Origin: Terriglobia bacterium
Lineage (GTDB): Bacteria > Acidobacteriota > Terriglobia > Acidiferrales > UBA7541
Assembly (NCBI GenBank): GCA_023512135.1
Contig: JAIMAG010000006.1
Span: 62,001 to 126,000 of the forward strand
Length of the DNA: 64,000 nucleotides
Direction of reading: 5' to 3'
The translations under genes and the position numbers were made by a program. This document shows, piece after piece, positions 22,511-31,927 of this stretch. Position 1 is the first letter of the stretch; every line of letters begins with the position of its first letter. The notes under the pieces were generated by a model. The model did no database searches and was not told where the DNA came from. It saw only the letters and a program-made list of their open reading frames with translations.

Positions 22511-23914
22511 TCAGCAACCCGCCGGCATCGCTTCGCAGCGCAAGCTGGCGGCCGCGGGCAGCGGGGGCCTGCGCCACTGCCGCTGCGACGTCTCCGCCGG
22601 CACCGCCGGCCATCCAAAAGCGTGGACGATACGATCGAAGGTCGTGCGGTCCGTGCCTTCCACGCTCAGGCATTCGTTTGCGATGCAGTAGAGAAACACA
22701 CTGCCCTCTTCGCCGGCGTCGAAAGCCAGAAAGTTCGTGCTGCGCCACTCGTTCTGGCGCGTGGCATACCGGCGCTGCAACAGCTCGGCGTACTGGCGGA
22801 AGAATTCTTTCGCTTCTTCCCCGGACAACCGCACGCGAAACACCAGCAGGATCTGGCGCGTGGAGGCGTGCTCGGCAATCGCGTAGCGGTCACCATCCCA
22901 GGCGGGCGCCAGTCGACGGGCAGTCGGTTCTCCCAGGTGCTGCTTGAGCAGGCTCAGCAGGCCGAACTCACCGAGCACATTTTCGTCCAGCAGCTTCCAC
23001 CCCTCCGGCAACTGCTGCGCCAGCTTCGGCAGGGCGACAGGCGCAGGCACATAGCCGGCAAAATATCGTTCCGGGTGGAGGATCTGCTGTGAAGACGCCG
23101 GTGGATTTACAAACACGCGAGAAAATTCGCTCCACCCCGCCGTGCGCAGCACGGCCTGCGAGAAAATCAGGCCCTGGCGGTAGGGAAAAATCAGCGCATC
23201 GGCGATGAAGGGCGGTGCACTCGCCAGCAGGGGAAAGTTCTGATCGCTCAGATTGAGCTGGTCGAGAAAGGGCGAGAGATCCGGCAATGCCTGCAGGGAA
23301 ACTCCCATCTCGCGGAAAGCGAAGTCCAACATCGCGGCCATGGCCGAACCTTCCACGACAGCAGCGCGCGCCAGATGCGCGTCGTCGTTCGGCTTCGCCG
23401 CTTCCACCCATGGCTCCAGTTGGAAATGCTGATCCTGCAGCGCGTGGGTCAACTCATGCACGACGACCGACTCCACGTCTCCCGACGGAACCCAGTCCGC
23501 CACAATGAACTCGTGGGCCTTGGGGTCATAGATTCCGATCACCTGCTCGGTCAACAGATCCAGCAGAAACTGTTCCAGCGGGAAACCTTTCGGAATCAAA
23601 CCCCACTTTTCGAGCAGACGAATGTCGGCATAGCGTTTGGCCGGCTCTTTGTCTTCCTGAAATTCTTTCACCAGATAGGAGCGGATCTCTTCCCGCGAAC
23701 GGATGCTTTTCTGGAGCGGCCGCTTCACCTCCAGCGCAATTAACCGGCTGACCTCGGCCAGCAGTCGGTCGGCCTGCGCCAGAATCTCCTGCGCAGAAAC
23801 AGCCGGGGCGGGCGCTGCAGCCGCCGACTCGGGTGCAGGCTGCTGCGCTATCGCACTGCCCAGCAGCGATAGAAGGAAACCAACAACGAGAAATTGCCTG
23901 AGCGTTCGGTTCAT
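22511..23914 (-). CDS. Secreted HExxH-type putative metallopeptidase
   Basis: This 467-residue protein has a signal peptide (FLVVGFLLSLLGSAIAQQ). A zinc-protease-like motif VVHELTHALQDQHF lies near residue 153, with a downstream acidic segment (AAVVEGSAMAAML) that could supply the third ligand, as in gluzincin-type enzymes. The preceding GIYDPKAHEFIV is typical of this acidobacterial hypothetical family. The C-terminal part has no clear domain. It converges on the phosphatase gene with 19 bases between stops. Peptidase activity is inferred from the motif only. Confidence 0.75.
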   Translation of the reverse strand: MNRTLRQFLVVGFLLSLLGSAIAQQPAPESAAAAPAPAVSAQEILAQADRLLAEVSRLIALEVKRPLQKSIRSREEIRSYLVKEFQEDKEPAKRYADIRLLEKWGLIPKGFPLEQFLLDLLTEQVIGIYDPKAHEFIVADWVPSGDVESVVVHELTHALQDQHFQLEPWVEAAKPNDDAHLARAAVVEGSAMAAMLDFAFREMGVSLQALPDLSPFLDQLNLSDQNFPLLASAPPFIADALIFPYRQGLIFSQAVLRTAGWSEFSRVFVNPPASSQQILHPERYFAGYVPAPVALPKLAQQLPEGWKLLDENVLGEFGLLSLLKQHLGEPTARRLAPAWDGDRYAIAEHASTRQILLVFRVRLSGEEAKEFFRQYAELLQRRYATRQNEWRSTNFLAFDAGEEGSVFLYCIANECLSVEGTDRTTFDRIVHAFGWPAVPAETSQRQWRRPPLPAAASLRCEAMPAGC

Positions 23915-25113: not shown

Positions 25114-25431
25114 TCCTGTGCATGCTGAGAGCTGGAATGCAGAACGTAACTATGCTGGCAACTCCCCGGGTAAAGGTCAAGCCGACACCACCTACCCTGT
25201 GTGCAAAAAACACCTTTAAGGTACCGCTCCCGTTTGCCCTGCACGAAAGCACTTGGCGCGCGGGGTGTCTTCCGGCGTGTTCGCGGCCTAACCGTTCTAG
25301 CGACCCACCGGACCCGGCAGGCCGACACGGTTCCCCACCGGGGGTCATAGAAAATCATTTTGTTCTGTATTCGTAACAGATTAGTAATCTGCTACACTAT
25401 TCCTGCCGCTACCTCTGGGGATGAGGTTGCC
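25114..25431. other. Divergent intergenic region between CBS and XRE genes
   Basis: This 318-base region contains no convincing gene. Its right end is AT-rich and holds the palindrome at 25377-25391 and a possible -10 (TACACT, 25393-25398) for the XRE gene. On the minus strand, TTGACC lies upstream of the CBS gene, but no good -10 partner is evident. Confidence 0.5.
25377..25391. promoter_or_regulatory. Palindromic candidate operator of the XRE gene
   Basis: CAGATTA and TAATCTG form a perfect 7-bp inverted repeat around one base, immediately upstream of a TACACT -10-like element and 41 bases before the XRE start. This position fits autoregulation. Confidence 0.5.
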
Positions 25432-26172
25432 ATGGATCCCGGAGCGCAGCTCCGCCGGGTGCGCGAGCGTCTGGGTTTGACCTTCCGCGACGTCGAACGG
25501 GCCAGCTACGAGCTGGCCAGTCAGCGGGGACAAATGGAATTCGTGGTGCGCATCAGCCGGCTGGCGGACATCGAAAACCGCGGCGTCGTTCCCAGCTTGC
25601 ACAAGCTGTACAGTCTGTGCGCCATCTATCATCTCGATCCGCGGCAGGTGTGCCGCTGGTACAACATTCCGCTCGACGACTCCTTCCACGACGGTGCCCA
25701 GGTGACCGCCCCGCGCACGCATCTGGCGGCGCCGCCGATGCTCCTGAAGCTGCCTTTGCGGTTCGCCCCGACGTTCGATCCGAACCGCACCGCCCTGCTC
25801 AGCCGCCTGGTCGAACGCTGGGGCCAGTTGGAGGCCACACTGTTCAATGGCCATCCGCACTACACCTACGGCTACATTGGCCTGTCCGATCGCTGGATGG
25901 AGCCGCTGATCCGTCCGGGCGGGCTCGTGCTGGTGGATACGCGGCTGCGCCAGGTGCACAACTCCGGCTGGCAGAACGAATACGAGCGTCCGATCTACTT
26001 CGTGGAACTGCGCAAAGAATACCGCTGCAGCTGGTGTCGCAAAGAAGAGGGCCGGCTGATTCTGGAATCTCATCCGCTCTCACCCTGCACGCCGCAGGTC
26101 TGGAAGTCCCCCGAAGAAGCGGAGATAGTCGGTCAGGTAGTCGGCATCGCTATGCGGTTGGTGGCCCGGTAG
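25432..26172 (+). CDS. XRE-family regulator with degenerate S24/LexA-like C-terminus
   Basis: This 246-residue protein has an XRE-type HTH at about residues 5-75 (LRRVRERLGLTFRDVERASY, then ISRLADIENRGVVPSLHKLY). The C-terminal half resembles an S24 peptidase fold (YIGLSDRWMEPLIRPGGLVL, GQVVGIAMRLV). In active S24 proteins this segment reads GDSMEP with a catalytic Ser; here the equivalent position is Trp, so self-cleavage is unlikely. A CxxC and a later Cys (RCSWCRKEEGR, PLSPCTP) are inserted in the fold. It is probably a repressor that senses a ligand. GAGG precedes the ATG. Its 3' end overlaps the convergent gene by 23 bases. Confidence 0.8.
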   Translation: MDPGAQLRRVRERLGLTFRDVERASYELASQRGQMEFVVRISRLADIENRGVVPSLHKLYSLCAIYHLDPRQVCRWYNIPLDDSFHDGAQVTAPRTHLAAPPMLLKLPLRFAPTFDPNRTALLSRLVERWGQLEATLFNGHPHYTYGYIGLSDRWMEPLIRPGGLVLVDTRLRQVHNSGWQNEYERPIYFVELRKEYRCSWCRKEEGRLILESHPLSPCTPQVWKSPEEAEIVGQVVGIAMRLVAR

Positions 26173-26599
26173 TCCGCTCAGCCGTGAGCACACGCAGCAG
26201 CACGCGCAGGTTCGAAGCGAACAGCTCGCGCAGGTAGTCGGGCATGCCGTCAGGAACCGCCGCACAGAATGGTTCCTGCGTTTGCCACCATTTCGCAACC
26301 TCCTCGAAGTCTTCCGCCACGCTCGCCAGATAGCGGCGCAATTCGCGCTCGAGCTGTTCGAGCGGCATCTCCAGAATGCGCAGGAAAAGCTGCTCATGGC
26401 AGAACGCCAGTGCCTGCTGCACGGCTTCGTCCCCGTACCGAACCGACAAGCCGGCGTGCTTGTAACGACCACTGCTCAGGTCGCGCAAAGAAGCCACATG
26501 CAGCAGCCGGGCCAGGTCTCCGGGAAGCGCGGCCAGCGTCTGCTCGGTGAAGTCTTCGATCAGCCGCTGGGTTTGCCGGAAACGTTCGAGCGATTCCAT
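26150..26599 (-). CDS. Conserved hypothetical helical protein
   Basis: This 149-residue, mostly helical protein has no signal peptide (MESLERFRQTQRLIEDFTEQ, SGRYKHAGLSVRYGDEAVQQ). It overlaps the end of the XRE gene and shares the palindrome at 26608-26627 with the divergent small-peptide gene. A TACAAA -10-like element lies on the minus strand at 26627-26632. I do not recognise the family. Conservation between the XRE gene and the peptide gene would suggest a functional link. Confidence 0.55.
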   Translation of the reverse strand: MESLERFRQTQRLIEDFTEQTLAALPGDLARLLHVASLRDLSSGRYKHAGLSVRYGDEAVQQALAFCHEQLFLRILEMPLEQLERELRRYLASVAEDFEEVAKWWQTQEPFCAAVPDGMPDYLRELFASNLRVLLRVLTAERTTGPPTA

Positions 26600-26607
26600 G
26601 ATTTTTG

Positions 26608-26627
26608 ACGTTCCGAATTCAGAACGT
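26608..26627. promoter_or_regulatory. Palindromic candidate operator between divergent genes
   Basis: ACGTTC and GAACGT flank a central GAATTC, giving a 20-base inverted repeat with one internal mismatch pair. It overlaps the likely promoters of the 149-aa gene (minus) and the small-peptide gene (plus; TTGACG at 26605-26610), so one regulator could control both. Confidence 0.5.
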
Positions 26628-26647
26628 TTGTACGCATTCTCAGCCCA

Positions 26648-26688
26648 GGTGACCCCTCCGCCGCAGACTGCCGGGCGAGGAGGTCACC
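26648..26688 (+). promoter_or_regulatory. Leader hairpin that hides the ribosome-binding site of the small-peptide gene
   Basis: GGTGACC-CCTC (26648-26658) can pair with GAGG-A-GGTCACC (26677-26688), giving 11 base pairs with one bulged A and an 18-base loop. The 3' arm contains the Shine-Dalgarno sequence GAGGAGG (26677-26683) and touches the ATG at 26689. This looks like a translational on/off element, such as a thermometer, a ligand-responsive leader or an sRNA target. Confidence 0.5.
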
Positions 26689-26892
26689 ATGCGCAAACGC
26701 AGCCTGTGCATCCTGTTCGTGTGCCTTGCGATGCTACTCCCAGTGCTGTCGGGGGTCAATGCAGGTTCTTTCGAGGAGACCACACTGACCGATGGTGTGC
26801 GGCCGACTCCGCCAGCCCCGCCCAAAGGCGGCGGGATCGAGCTGGCCGATGGCGTACGGCCCACGCCCCCGGCACCACCGCGCATTGCCTGA
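26689..26892 (+). CDS. Small secreted peptide with two DGVRPTPPAPP repeats
   Basis: This 67-residue product has a signal peptide (RKRSLCILFVCLAMLLPVLS, then cleavage near NAG), leaving a mature peptide of about 42 residues. It contains TDGVRPTPPAPP (34-45) and ADGVRPTPPAPP (53-64). Most codons of the two copies differ at the third base while the amino acids are the same, which shows that the protein sequence is what selection keeps. GAGGAGG precedes the ATG but lies inside a hairpin. A role as a secreted signal, an antimicrobial or a surface-binding peptide is possible; none is proven. It lies next to an XRE regulator and upstream of a signalling region. Confidence 0.75.
   Translation: MRKRSLCILFVCLAMLLPVLSGVNAGSFEETTLTDGVRPTPPAPPKGGGIELADGVRPTPPAPPRIA
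26788..26880 (+). repeat. Two diverged copies of a 36-base coding repeat
   Basis: Copy 1 spans 26788-26823 and copy 2 spans 26845-26880. They encode (T/A)DGVRPTPPAPP. The codons differ at most third positions (for example GGT/GGC, GTG/GTA, ACT/ACG), so the repeat is kept at protein level. Confidence 0.8.
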
Positions 26893-26978
26893 GCCGCCCA
26901 CGCAGGCCACTCGGGCTTCGGCACGCCTCCTGTACCGTTGCCCGGAAAAAGGGTGGGTGTGTCTCTTCTCCCCTGCTG

Positions 26979-27007
26979 TTGTACAGGTGGTTAAGTAATG
27001 CTAGAAT
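26979..27007 (+). promoter_or_regulatory. Sigma-70 promoter producing a nearly leaderless transcript
   Basis: TTGTAC (26979-26984) and TAGAAT (27002-27007) are 17 bases apart. Transcription should begin near 27013-27015, only 5-7 bases before the ATG at 27020, and no ribosome-binding site fits in that space. Confidence 0.55.
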
Positions 27008-27019
27008 TTTCCCGCATCG

Positions 27020-27799
27020 ATGGATTTGCGTCCGCTCGACTACGGATTCTGGGCTGCCGGTACGATTCTGGAGCTGCTTTGCTTGATCTGGATCCGGCGC
27101 CGCGGTTTGCACCGGCAACTTCCCTGGTTCACCGTCTATCTCGGGCTGGTGCTGACGGCGGACCTAGCGGCGTGGTGGCTCTGGCATCGAGTTGGCTACA
27201 CCGACCCGCTGACTTTTTACCTCCACTGGAGCTTCGAAGCGCTTCTGCTGGTTGCACGAGCCCTGGTGATTGCAGAGCTTTGCCGGGACACATTGGCCGC
27301 CTACGCCGGCATCTGGAAACTTTCTCGACTGTTCCTGCTGGCGACGGCCACCGTACTCGTTCTGATCGCAGTGGGCAACGCCTGGGGTGCCCGCGACGCA
27401 TTGCCGACATTCATCTACACGGCGCAACATGGTCTGGAGATGGCCGCCGTGGGGATCATTCTGGTGCTGCTGGCCGTCTGCCACTACTACCGCGTGCCCG
27501 TGCGTCCGGTGACGCTCTGGATTGCCTATGGCATCGGCTTCTATGCCAGTGTGCAGATTGCCCTGCTCACCGCCCTGCAAGTCTGGGGCAATGAATCCAT
27601 CCCTGCTTTCAGTTCGATCCGCGCAGCCAGCTATCTGCTTGCGCTGGGCACCTGGCTGGCTGCCGTGGTCCGCGCCCGCGTAGAACACGTCCCCGGGCCC
27701 GTACTGTTGCCCGCCGGCATCTATGAACAGACGACTCCGCAGGTGAACGAGCAACTGCAGAAGCTGAATGCACGCCTTCTGGAGATTCTGCGCGGATGA
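27020..27799 (+). CDS. Seven-helix membrane protein of unknown function
   Basis: This 259-residue protein has about seven hydrophobic helices, starting with YGFWAAGTILELLCLIWI and including WFTVYLGLVLTADLAAWWLW. It ends in a cytosolic coiled-coil-like tail (TPQVNEQLQKLNARLLEILR). The layout resembles acidobacterial membrane proteins that lack a named function. It overlaps the next gene by four bases (ATGA), so the two are translationally coupled. The predicted transcript has almost no leader. Its place between the small secreted peptide and a hybrid kinase would suit a sensor or transporter, but this is speculation. Confidence 0.7.
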   Translation: MDLRPLDYGFWAAGTILELLCLIWIRRRGLHRQLPWFTVYLGLVLTADLAAWWLWHRVGYTDPLTFYLHWSFEALLLVARALVIAELCRDTLAAYAGIWKLSRLFLLATATVLVLIAVGNAWGARDALPTFIYTAQHGLEMAAVGIILVLLAVCHYYRVPVRPVTLWIAYGIGFYASVQIALLTALQVWGNESIPAFSSIRAASYLLALGTWLAAVVRARVEHVPGPVLLPAGIYEQTTPQVNEQLQKLNARLLEILRG

Positions 27800-28341
27800 G
27801 CGAAGCGCTCCTCTATGGTCTGCTTGCCGCCGCGCTGCTGGCGTTGCTGACGGGGTTGCTGCGCGCGCTGGCGGTGCCGGCCGCGACCGCACCGGCCCCG
27901 ATCGAACGACTGCTGCCACGCCACCCGCAGTACTTTCCCGCGCTGCGCCCGTCCCTGCAGACAGCCGACGGGGAATTTCTCCGCGGCCGGTTGCCCCGTG
28001 AGGAGTTCCTGCGCTGGCGCGCGGAACGCCGCCGGATCCTGCGGGGGTTTCTGGCCGGACTCAATCAGGACTGCCGGCACCTGACACAGTTGGCCCGCAC
28101 GGTGGCGCGACTTTCGCCGCGAGTGAGCCGGCGTTCGGAACTCCAACTGTTGCAGTTGCAGGTTTCCTTTCGGCTGCTTTATGGGCTGGCCTGGCTGCGG
28201 GTCAGTCTGAACGTCGCCGCGTTGCGCAATGTTTCCGAACTGACCTATCGCGTGGGGCGTCTGGCCGCACAGGTGGAAGCGGCCATGCTCGCGCTGGAAT
28301 CCAGCAGCCGGTTGCGCCCGGATCCGCGCCTCAACGGGTGA
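27796..28341 (+). CDS. Single-pass membrane protein of unknown function
   Basis: This 181-residue protein has one N-terminal hydrophobic segment (LLYGLLAAALLALLTGLLRA). A mostly helical, Arg/Leu-rich cytosolic part follows, with RLLPRHPQYFPALRPSLQTA and REEFLRWRAERRRILRGFLA. It overlaps the upstream seven-helix gene by four bases and the convergent histidine kinase gene by 11 bases. I do not recognise a family; it is probably a partner of the upstream membrane protein. Confidence 0.65.
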   Translation: MSEALLYGLLAAALLALLTGLLRALAVPAATAPAPIERLLPRHPQYFPALRPSLQTADGEFLRGRLPREEFLRWRAERRRILRGFLAGLNQDCRHLTQLARTVARLSPRVSRRSELQLLQLQVSFRLLYGLAWLRVSLNVAALRNVSELTYRVGRLAAQVEAAMLALESSSRLRPDPRLNG

Positions 28342-31300
28342 TCGGGCTCGGCTGCTGCGCCGGTTGGGTCAGTACCTGCCGCACCAGTCCGAGGAACTCT
28401 TCCATCTTGAACGGCTTCTGAACAAAGGAGCAGCGAGTTCGCTCCAGAAATGCGCGCACGTCTGGCGTACCGGCATCGGAAACAGTGAAGATCAGCCTCG
28501 ACAACAGTTCAGGCCGTTCCCGCTCGATCCAGGCATAGATTTCGCGGCCGGTGATCTCTCCCGGCATTTTCAGGTCGGTCACCACCACATCCACCGGTTC
28601 TCGTGCCAGCAGCTCCAATGCGTCGCGGCCGGAGCGCACGGCATGTACAGCGGTGAAATGGCCGCGCAGGATTTCCTGCTCGAGGTCCAGCACCGCTTCT
28701 TCATCGTCCACGAGCAAGATGATCCCTGCCGTGACCTGGTGCCGCGGCGGTTCGGGCAGTCTGATTTTCTGTTCTCCGGCCGAAAGCACGGGAAGGGAAA
28801 CAGTGAAGGTGGCTCCCCGGGGCGGCGAGTTCCGCGCGCGAATTTCGCCCCCGTGTTCCTTGACGATGCCGTAGCAGATGCTCAGCCCCAAGCCCGTGCC
28901 CTTGCCCACTGCCTTGGTTGTGTAGAACGGATCGAAGATGCGCAGCGGGTCGGTCACACCCGGACCGCTATCGGTGATTTCGACCACGAGCATGCCGTTT
29001 TCGGCACGCGTCTCGACCCAGATTTCTCCCAGCTGTGCCCGCTCCAGAATTGCGTCCACGGCATTGTTCAAGATGTTCAGAAACACCTGCTGGAGCTGAT
29101 GCGCGTCACCGGAGGTGAGCGGGAGAGCGGGGTCCAGGTTGCGGTGCACGCGAATGTTGTTCAGCTTCAGATCGTATTCGCGCAGCATCAGCGTGTCTTC
29201 CAGGATCTGGTTGATTTTCACCGGAAGCCGTTCCGGCTTGTGCTGACGGGCAAAGCTGAGCAGGTTCTGCACGATGCGATGCGTGCGCTGCGCCTGCCGG
29301 TAGAGTTTTTCTACGTACTGGCTGCCCCGTTCGGTTACTTCCCCGCTGCCGGCCAGCAACTGGCTGTAGCCCAGGATGGCCGTGAGCGGGTTGTTCAGTT
29401 CGTGCGCCACGCCCGAGATGAGCTGTCCGACCGCGGCCATTTTTTCGCTTTGCAGCAGTTGCTCCTGAGTGCGCCGCAGGTCCTCGTAGGCGCGTCGTGT
29501 CTCTTCGTACAGCAGCGAACGCTCCACCGTGCTCGCCACCAGGCTGCCAACAGCACTGAGCAGGTTCAGTTCGGCAGCAGAAAATTCGCGTGCCGAGCGG
29601 CTGGCGACCACCAGTCCGCCCAGGATGCGATCCTTCGACCACAGCACAATCAGGTAGGAGACCTGAATCCCTTCCTTTTGCTGGAGGTCGCGGAACACTT
29701 CCGGCAGGGGCAGATTCATGGCCGGCACCACGGTGGCGCGGGTGCGCCGCAGGTGACGGATAAATTGCGCACTCACCGGCGTGGGCGGGAACTTCGTCGC
29801 ATACTCGGAGCGGAATCCCACCGCCGCATGGCGCTGGACGACCAAGGTTTTTTCGTCGAGCAGATAGATGGCACCGAGGTCCACACCGAACAGCTCGACG
29901 AGTTGTGAGAGCGCGCGGGAAAGCAGCTCGTCCAGGCCGAGGGACTGACTCAAGGTCATGGCGATGGAATTCAGCACCATCAGCTCGCGGTTGCGCCGGC
30001 GGATTTCCTGCTCGGCCTGCTTGCGGGCGGTGATGTCCAGCACGAAACCCTGGTAGGCCACCACGCGGCCCTGCGCGTCCCGGGTGGCGATGCTCGATTC
30101 GCTGACGTCGATGATTTCCCCGTCGCGCCGGCGGAGCTGATACTCATAGTTGCTCACCGAGCCGTGCTCGAACAGCAGTTGTTTCAACCGTTCTCGATCG
30201 GCCGGGCGCACGTAGAGCGTCGAGGCGATGTCGGTGTTCATCAACTCGTCGCGATCCTCATAGCCGAGGATGCGCATGAACGCGTCGTTGAAATCTACGA
30301 AGCGGCCCTCCGGGGTGGAGATGAAGACGCCTTCGCGGACGTTTTCGAACAGGCTGCGGTACATCTGCTCGGCGCGGTACAACGCCGTCACGTCTTTCAG
30401 GACATGGATGGTGCCCGCACGCTGACCGGTGCCATCGCGAACCTCGGCGTTGGAGACGAGCAGATAGCCACCAAAGAAGGGATCCAGCGTGTCCCCCTTG
30501 CCCGCGGCGTGCTCACAATAGGGACACATTCGCCAGAACCGCTCGCCGCGACGCAGGATGCTGGTCATGGGCTGTCCGGCCAGTGTGCCGGGGTCCACCC
30601 CGAGCCGGTCGCCGACGGCGCGGTTGACGCGCAGCACGCGATAGGCATTGTCGTGCACCAGAATCGGGTCGGTGATGGAATCGAATGTGTTCGCCCACTG
30701 CCGTTGCGCCTCGGAGACATGCTGGAACAGCCAGACGTTCTGCACGGTCAACCCGAGCAGGTTGGCCACGTTGACGAGGAAACTCAGCTCATCGTCGCGA
30801 AACACGCGGGGCGTGTGGCAACCAATGCCCAGCAAGCCGATCGTGCGGTCCTGACCGGGCAGGCGAACCAGCGCCAGCACGCAGAGCCGCTCTGCAGTCA
30901 TCCACTGGCGCACTTCCCGGTCCGGAGTATCCGGGCGTGCAATGATCGGCGTGCTGCTTTCCAGCACGCGTCGGGCCCAGGGTTCGGAGGCACGCACGCG
31001 GCGTCGCTGCTCGAGAAAATCCGGGCTGCAGCCTGTGGCGGCCCGCAGCACCAGTTCGGGCTCCTGGTCTCCTCCTTCGAGCAATCGCACCTGGCCGTGC
31101 GTCGCGTTCAGGCTCGCAACCAGATGCTGGAGAACTTCGTTCAGCACTTTTTCGATCTGCAGCGTCTGCATGCCAGACGTGGTGATCAGCGTGAGCTGGC
31201 GGAGCTTGGCATTCAGGTCTTCTGCACGCGCACGAGTGTCTTCCAGTACCACGACCACCATGGCGACCCCGATGGCGACTTCGAACAGTCCGTCGAGTGC

Positions 31301-31843
31301 CAGCCGCACCGGATACAGCGGATGACTCATCCAGAGCGATTGATCGATCCAGTGCAGTCCGCGAAGCAAAAAGGCTGCGCTCAGAAGAACGGGTCCGAAG
31401 CTGCTTCGAGACCTTACATGTCGCCAAAGAATCCATCCGGTGGTCAAAAACAAGCTACTCTGCACTGCGGTCCGAATCCATGGGAGTGCTCCCTCTGACT
31501 GCTGCCAGAGGGACGGCAGAGCAACCATCAGCCCGCCCACCAGCGCCAGGCCGCCCAGGGTGCGCAAACGAAGTGGATGGCCCGTGTATTCCAACACGGC
31601 AGCCAGGAACAACAAGGAGGCCAGGAAAAGCAGCTCTGCGGTGGCCAAATGTTCCAGTCTGTGGTGGTATACGCAGCAGAGCGAACGACCTGCCCCAAAC
31701 CCGGCATACAGCACCCACCCGACCACCCACATCCGGAAAAATCGCTCGGGGAAATTGCGGTACAGCAACAGGTACAAAATCAGGAGAATCAGGATGGCCG
31801 AGGCTTCCAAGATGACAATTCCCAGGTTGCCTTGGTCGGGCAT
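28331..31843 (-). CDS. Hybrid sensor histidine kinase (membrane, GAF-PAS-PAS-GAF-HisKA-HATPase-REC)
   Basis: This 1,170-residue kinase begins with about seven membrane helices (residues 1-200). GAF (about 215-380), two PAS (about 385-625) and a second GAF (about 640-785) follow. The HisKA box AVGQLISGVAHELNNPLT has its phospho-His near residue 814. The HATPase has ILNNAVDAI, DSGPGV and GTGLGLSICYGIVKEHGG. The C-terminal receiver domain has its Asp in VVTDLKMPG near residue 1089. ATG at 31843 follows GGAGG; the longer frame to 31924 is less likely. It is divergent from the HD-GYP response regulator, a probable partner. The PAS1 region has CPYCEH, which might bind a metal or cofactor. Confidence 0.92.
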   Translation of the reverse strand: MPDQGNLGIVILEASAILILLILYLLLYRNFPERFFRMWVVGWVLYAGFGAGRSLCCVYHHRLEHLATAELLFLASLLFLAAVLEYTGHPLRLRTLGGLALVGGLMVALPSLWQQSEGALPWIRTAVQSSLFLTTGWILWRHVRSRSSFGPVLLSAAFLLRGLHWIDQSLWMSHPLYPVRLALDGLFEVAIGVAMVVVVLEDTRARAEDLNAKLRQLTLITTSGMQTLQIEKVLNEVLQHLVASLNATHGQVRLLEGGDQEPELVLRAATGCSPDFLEQRRRVRASEPWARRVLESSTPIIARPDTPDREVRQWMTAERLCVLALVRLPGQDRTIGLLGIGCHTPRVFRDDELSFLVNVANLLGLTVQNVWLFQHVSEAQRQWANTFDSITDPILVHDNAYRVLRVNRAVGDRLGVDPGTLAGQPMTSILRRGERFWRMCPYCEHAAGKGDTLDPFFGGYLLVSNAEVRDGTGQRAGTIHVLKDVTALYRAEQMYRSLFENVREGVFISTPEGRFVDFNDAFMRILGYEDRDELMNTDIASTLYVRPADRERLKQLLFEHGSVSNYEYQLRRRDGEIIDVSESSIATRDAQGRVVAYQGFVLDITARKQAEQEIRRRNRELMVLNSIAMTLSQSLGLDELLSRALSQLVELFGVDLGAIYLLDEKTLVVQRHAAVGFRSEYATKFPPTPVSAQFIRHLRRTRATVVPAMNLPLPEVFRDLQQKEGIQVSYLIVLWSKDRILGGLVVASRSAREFSAAELNLLSAVGSLVASTVERSLLYEETRRAYEDLRRTQEQLLQSEKMAAVGQLISGVAHELNNPLTAILGYSQLLAGSGEVTERGSQYVEKLYRQAQRTHRIVQNLLSFARQHKPERLPVKINQILEDTLMLREYDLKLNNIRVHRNLDPALPLTSGDAHQLQQVFLNILNNAVDAILERAQLGEIWVETRAENGMLVVEITDSGPGVTDPLRIFDPFYTTKAVGKGTGLGLSICYGIVKEHGGEIRARNSPPRGATFTVSLPVLSAGEQKIRLPEPPRHQVTAGIILLVDDEEAVLDLEQEILRGHFTAVHAVRSGRDALELLAREPVDVVVTDLKMPGEITGREIYAWIERERPELLSRLIFTVSDAGTPDVRAFLERTRCSFVQKPFKMEEFLGLVRQVLTQPAQQPSPITR

Positions 31844-31927
31844 CAGGACTGCCTCCGAGACTTGCGAATGTGCCTTTTCCCGCGCTGTTCTGGCGGGGCC
31901 AACACCCAAGGGAACTGCTTTCAAGGC

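Follow-up and report, generated by a model that had tools for sequence, protein, structure and literature searches.

The 64,000-nucleotide stretch of Terriglobia DNA analysed here (the window) contains an open reading frame (ORF) for only 67 amino acids whose product carries two nearly identical proline-rich repeats. This raises the questions of whether so short a frame is a gene at all and what its repeats would be for. The predicted product is MRKRSLCILFVCLAMLLPVLSGVNAGSFEETTLTDGVRPTPPAPPKGGGIELADGVRPTPPAPPRIA, and a ribosome-binding site, GAGGAGG, is located at 26677-26683, five bases upstream of the ATG. The features of the gene are the following.

26689-26892, + strand: predicted secreted repeat-peptide precursor of 67 aa, upstream of a gene for a seven-transmembrane (7-TM) protein
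26689-26763, + strand: hydrophobic export leader of the precursor, as judged from its sequence and from the alignment of Acidiferrales precursors
26788-26823, + strand: repeat 1, TDGVRPTPPAPP
26845-26880, + strand: repeat 2, ADGVRPTPPAPP

The initial annotation had claimed that the repeats are almost identical as protein and that their DNA copies diverge at the third base of most codons. This was confirmed: the repeats, of 12 residues each, use unlike codons at 10 of the 12 positions and differ by a single amino acid, nine of the base changes affecting the third base and one the first base, which is the source of the T/A difference. The probability of at most one amino-acid change given 10 random base changes in the repeat is 4e-5. 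The annotation had further proposed that the lack of a homologous small ORF in relatives, or homologues with frameshifts, would speak against the gene. Instead, an intact orthologue of the 67-aa ORF, 78% identical and with all 24 repeat residues identical, is present in a same-genus genome (G001), and recognisable relatives of the peptide were found in about ten further family-level genomes, as shorter or longer precursors with other repeats (DGWPLPPGPP x4, DGSGPVPPFPP x4, DGSRPVPPPPP x3, DGVPAPPWPxP x2). Comparison of synonymous and non-synonymous change, which had likewise been proposed, gave a dN/dS of 0.36 for the whole ORF (G000 versus G001), of 0.13 from residue 32 onwards, past the leader, and of about 1.1 for the leader, the repeats being unchanged. 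In both genomes one of the two other forward frames contains a stop codon; the second is open over the compared stretch and its translation is poorly conserved. An antisense ORF (26640-26924) was considered as the true gene and rejected, the substitution bias fitting the + frame instead.

Beyond the window, about 30 other precursors likewise have repeats that agree as protein while their DNA differs mostly at third bases, which supports the earlier claims of a genuine short gene with a repeat unit that matters. The signal peptide proposed for the product corresponds to a predicted hydrophobic export leader, which the about 30 other precursors share. Alignment shows that 'LPVxxxVN' is kept in the leaders of Acidiferrales precursors, and a signal peptidase I site after V-N-A is plausible for the 67-aa precursor. 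The view that no described family has this repeat also held: Pfam, NCBIfam, PHROGs and PADLOC contain no family covering the peptide, its score against the NCBIfam ProTailRpt proline-rich surface repeats (TIGR04307; 11.1 bits, E 0.33) lies below the curated cut-off of 40 bits, and a search of the literature on Acidobacteria peptides, bacterial GPCR-like proteins and repeat pheromones retrieved nothing relevant.

The peptide gene is part of a cassette that is conserved across the class Terriglobia (Acidobacteriota) and that otherwise comprises the following genes.

25432-26172, + strand: XRE-type helix-turn-helix (HTH) regulator whose C-terminal half is LexA/S24-like (Pfam HTH_31; alignment)
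26150-26599, - strand: 149-aa helical protein, divergent from the peptide gene
27020-27799, + strand: 7-TM protein, a candidate peptide receptor on the basis of its model, fold matches and co-variation with the peptide
27796-28341, + strand: 181-aa membrane-anchored protein, a candidate coupling partner, the start of which overlaps the 7-TM gene by four bases (ATGA)

The HTH domain is the only known domain that Pfam detected in the cassette neighbours. Profile searches of 40 loci in relatives identified the regulator in 40, the 149-aa protein in 39 and the 7-TM protein in 37, and a scan of GTDB genomes added 80 loci, nearly all of which contain the same cassette, the 149-aa protein included, where the contig is long enough; both sets were chosen by their regulator, so that these cassette frequencies are conditional on it. 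The 80 loci are mostly labelled Acidiferrales, Bryobacterales, Acidobacteriales or Terriglobia. Among 250 sampled Terriglobia genomes, the 7-TM family is present in 201 and the regulator in 137. The cassette is syntenic in many relatives of the family, and a more distant clade has the 7-TM, 181-aa and peptide genes jointly in inverted orientation. PHROGs, PADLOC and plasmid searches for a phage, plasmid or defence origin were without match. The cassette, elsewhere acidobacterial, also occurs on public MAG contigs labelled Bacillota and Betaproteobacteria (L073, JAIMBE010000018.1; L083, CAJCHZ010000042.1). These labels look wrong; the L073 regulator is 89% identical to that of the window.

The model of the 149-aa protein is all-helical (pLDDT 96) and the family conserves Y46, H48 and H68 as invariant Tyr/His residues. 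Comparison of the model with the PDB gave no convincing structural match, and DDX19B, considered as a fold match at an E of about 0.05, was discarded as looking like chance. Convergent to the cassette, positions 28331-31924 (- strand) encode a hybrid sensor histidine kinase whose N-terminus is multi-span and whose domains are GAF/PAS/HisKA/HATPase/receiver; a functional relation is possible. It was rejected as a core part of the cassette, since only about half of the closest loci have it alongside. A secreted, weakly metallopeptidase-like protein (DUF6782 / Hvo_1808-like) is encoded at 22511-23914 (- strand), lies near the cassette in many relatives, and is a possible candidate for a processing protease.

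Peptide genes are a regular occupant of the slot before the 7-TM gene. When a slot peptide was defined as a short ORF with a ribosome-binding site, a hydrophobic leader and prolines, one was found on the correct strand in 58 of the 66 cassettes whose gap upstream of the 7-TM gene is complete, against none on the opposite strand and 0.7 expected from shuffled gaps; a looser filter also detected a peptide in four of the eight negatives (L127, L132, L136 and L139). The precursors contain from one to about eight repeats, which are unlike between genomes, and the copies within most multi-copy precursors agree much better as protein than as DNA, base differences being mostly third-position. Acidiferrales peptides have D/S-G-x-P-x-P-P-x-P-P-like cores in one to six copies. 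Bryobacterales peptides end in PxPxCxPCxxR-like C-terminal tails, and repeated tails of this type occur in several cases (L131, MPIPTCYPC x3; L114, NTLPSCYPCDAST x3). Other slot repeats are FDGNPSSKYP (L137, about x8), DVPNPGPH (L068, x4) and SWPIPDPDSPNPP (L139, x2), and short single-copy forms exist as well. At two loci (L135, 7374-7693; L148, 7024-7290) a pair of tandem genes for nearly identical peptides stands in place of intragenic repeats. The slot peptides are neutral to acidic (mean net charge -0.33, with 14% at +2 or more), their Pro content is 24%, and Cys pairs are found in 23 of the 58. An Ala immediately precedes the core in about four-fifths of the repeats, mostly as hydrophobic-x-Ala (L-x-A or similar); the raw count takes in overlapping S-G matches. 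This position of Ala suggests a cut just before Asp-Gly, and processing of the precursors into separate peptides is plausible.

Within the cassette, it is the 7-TM protein with which the peptides co-vary. In 26 Acidiferrales loci, distances between peptide repeat cores correlated with 7-TM distances when controlled for the other three genes (partial Mantel r=0.52, p=0.0002), and the same was observed for 18 non-redundant loci (r=0.49, p=0.0002), although such values can be inflated by shared ancestry. The regulator, the 149-aa protein and the 181-aa protein, each controlled for the rest, displayed no significant residual correlation with the peptide in the 26 or the 18 loci; the 181-aa gene, which diverges to the same degree and follows the 7-TM gene in the operon, serves as an internal control. 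Correlation did not locate a peptide-contacting face on the 7-TM protein, the periplasmic and cytoplasmic halves of which contribute equally to the co-variation. Acidobacteriaceae-type genomes contain many 7-TM homologues without an adjacent regulator, 149-aa or 181-aa gene. Eight of 12 such orphan genes have a short secreted-type peptide directly upstream, and no other constant neighbour of the orphans was found. The persistence of these pairs without the rest of the cassette indicates that peptide and 7-TM protein are the likely minimal unit, and the co-variation makes the 7-TM protein a candidate for a peptide-binding, signalling receptor.

The AlphaFold2 model of the 7-TM protein (62 sequences; pLDDT 92) consists of seven long helices and a C-terminal helix, and the loop charges, read by the positive-inside rule, give an N-out/C-in topology. 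Model and topology thus resemble those of GPCR-type peptide receptors. Foldseek ranks class C GPCRs, Ste2 and rhodopsins first, all of them weak matches (E 0.085 or worse, TM about 0.4-0.47). With VIA-align the top 50 matches are all receptor-like 7-TM folds, one of them designed, at Z 11.6-13.8, a range in which chance matches between helical bundles can occur, and for this reason we do not claim homology to GPCRs or rhodopsins. No sequence match to the 7-TM profile was found in the PDB, and the protein has no attached output domain. The cytoplasmic halves of its helices are more conserved than the periplasmic halves (0.437 versus 0.298, p=1.5e-5), and the alignment contains few near-invariant polar residues.

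Two palindromes at the cassette are candidate operators.

26610-26625: GTTCCGAATTCAGAAC, candidate operator in the promoter region shared by the divergent peptide and 149-aa genes
25362-25377: GTTCTGTATTCGTAAC, second candidate, preceding the regulator gene

In all Acidiferrales-type loci examined, GTTC-N8-GAAC is exact and near-constant in position in the divergent promoter, and Bryobacterales divergent promoters mostly keep seven of its eight defined bases. The palindrome upstream of the regulator is exact in 47 of 80 related loci, with seven of eight defined bases in most others. Allowing up to three mismatches, the consensus TGTTCYGAATTCRGAACA has two matches in its own 2.8-Mb genome, both at the cassette, and the reversed control has none. 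The own genome thus contains no target of the consensus outside the cassette, so that no wider regulon is visible via the regulator. The conservation of the sites points to both palindromes as putative binding sites of the regulator. Pfam assigns HTH_31, HTH_19 or HTH_3 and a weak Peptidase_S24 to regulator family members (S24 in the C-terminal half, at best E 0.037 among three members) and detects no TPR repeats in them. The residue at the position of the catalytic Ser, before M-x-P, varies across 28 members (W/M/R/T/S), which makes autocleavage unlikely in most of them. A sigma-70-like promoter sequence, TGTACA-16-TAGAAT, is present at 26980-27007 (+ strand) just upstream of the 7-TM gene, which may have its own promoter.

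We propose, with a probability of roughly one half (0.52), an autoregulated circuit in which the 7-TM protein is the receptor and the peptide its pheromone-like ligand. According to this proposal, the 67-aa precursor would be exported by its N-terminal signal peptide and probably cut at each hydrophobic-x-Ala/Asp-Gly boundary to release at least one proline-rich peptide some 11 residues long. The released peptide would be sensed by the 7-TM protein encoded downstream, as suggested by the co-variation, by the variable periplasmic as opposed to conserved cytoplasmic helix halves, and by the orphan pairs. The 181-aa membrane protein, for which the indications are weak, would probably pass the signal on. 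The HTH regulator would act on the palindromes of its own gene and of the 149-aa/peptide divergent promoter, making the cassette self-controlled. Purifying selection would keep the repeats within one precursor alike, since every copy must, we propose, fit the same receptor, and repeat and receptor would drift together between lineages. In genome G034 the regulator gene occurs six times and at least four cassettes encode distinct repeat peptides (L040, L064, L066, L069, L072), as parallel signalling channels would predict.

One of the closest parallels is yeast alpha-factor/Ste2, which also combines a secreted precursor of tandem, near-identical short peptides with an N-out 7-TM partner and lineage-specific co-variation, and the Ste2 dimer 7ad3 is among the weak fold matches. 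Unlike in yeast, the cassette precursors have no visible Kex2-type dibasic sites and the peptide and receptor genes are adjacent; there is no sequence similarity, and we know of no heterotrimeric G proteins in bacteria. It is a tentative extension of our proposal that Acidobacteria possess a counterpart of this system, a multi-copy pheromone with a stand-alone GPCR/rhodopsin-like 7-TM receptor in lineage-specific pairs, with several parallel channels per cell. RRNPP systems (Rgg/SHP, PlcR/PapR, ComRS) resemble the cassette in that a gene for a small secreted peptide lies close to that of an HTH regulator, with likely autoregulation. RRNPP regulators combine the HTH with TPR peptide-binding repeats, and the peptide binds the cytosolic regulator. 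The cassette regulator instead has a LexA/S24-like half and no TPR, and the constant companion of the peptide, which does not co-vary with the regulator, is the 7-TM gene. As in Agr-type systems (AgrBDCA), a peptide precursor adjoins a multi-span membrane protein, but the cassette encodes its peptides as tandem repeats that follow an export leader, and there is no AgrB-like protein or histidine-kinase receptor in the cassette. The regulator resembles LexA/CI-like HTH-S24 repressors such as DdrO (PDB 6rmq, a weak match) in its N-terminal HTH, S24-like C-terminal region and palindromic operators, but differs from them in lacking a conserved catalytic Ser before Met-x-Pro. No described system in the databases and literature searched matches the cassette, which we therefore rate as new in kind, its function being the part that we infer.

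The main rival, itself improbable, is that the peptides are narrow-range bacteriocins against kin, with the 7-TM protein (together with the 181-aa protein) as immunity protein and a damage- or stress-responsive repressor. A small secreted peptide gene followed by one for a co-varying multi-span membrane protein is the usual bacteriocin/immunity layout, with which the gene order here is compatible; diversification of the peptides between lineages and the LexA/CI-like regulator point the same way. Apidaecin-type antimicrobial peptides are also proline-rich and sometimes made as multi-copy precursors, but the cassette peptides, at a mean charge of -0.33, are not cationic as most proline-rich antibacterial peptides are, have no Arg-rich motif, and have a co-varying 7-TM partner. 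The cassette is moreover a syntenic locus in many family relatives rather than a mobile island, has no plasmid, PADLOC or PHROGs match and no dedicated exporter, and the 7-TM protein, with its conserved cytoplasmic helix halves, looks more like a signalling protein.

Slightly harder still to favour is the idea of the 7-TM protein as a transporter or intramembrane protease by which the peptide is exported, imported or processed, the sensor lying elsewhere, for example in the HTH regulator, which would bind re-imported peptide in the manner of RRNPP systems. A substrate relation would also be expected to cause co-variation, and a cytosolic regulator does belong to the cassette. The precursors already have an export leader, however, the scarcity of near-invariant polar residues suggests that the 7-TM protein has no catalytic site, and a role of the regulator as sensor is opposed by its lack of significant residual co-variation and of TPR repeats and by the orphan pairs that do without it.

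We consider it unlikelier again that the peptides are structural or ligand-binding parts in the periplasm or outside the cell, anchored by the 7-TM protein; examples would be metal binding by the PxCxPC forms of Bryobacterales or proline-rich spacers of cell wall or outer membrane. The Pro content and the Cys pairs agree with such roles, but generic structural peptides would not be expected to combine tandem, near-identical copies within each precursor with change between lineages, or to co-vary with a 7-TM protein, and there are also short forms with a single copy. That the ORF is no gene, its frame kept open by a DNA repeat in high-GC sequence, as the open antisense frame overlapping it might suggest, is refuted by the synonymous-biased change, the ribosome-binding site and same-slot homologues in dozens of genomes.

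Acidobacteria rank with the most common bacteria of soils, and the literature searched describes no peptide signalling for them. Even if the peptides were bacteriocins, the cassette would expose a very large uncharacterised family of short genes, many of them easily missed by gene finders. If instead the pheromone-receptor proposal is true, the candidate 7-TM receptors would often have the sequence of their ligand in the adjacent gene, and ligand/receptor specificity would be directly testable with synthetic 11-residue peptides. The cassette would then provide a bacterial stand-alone 7-TM peptide receptor, bearing on where such receptors arose.
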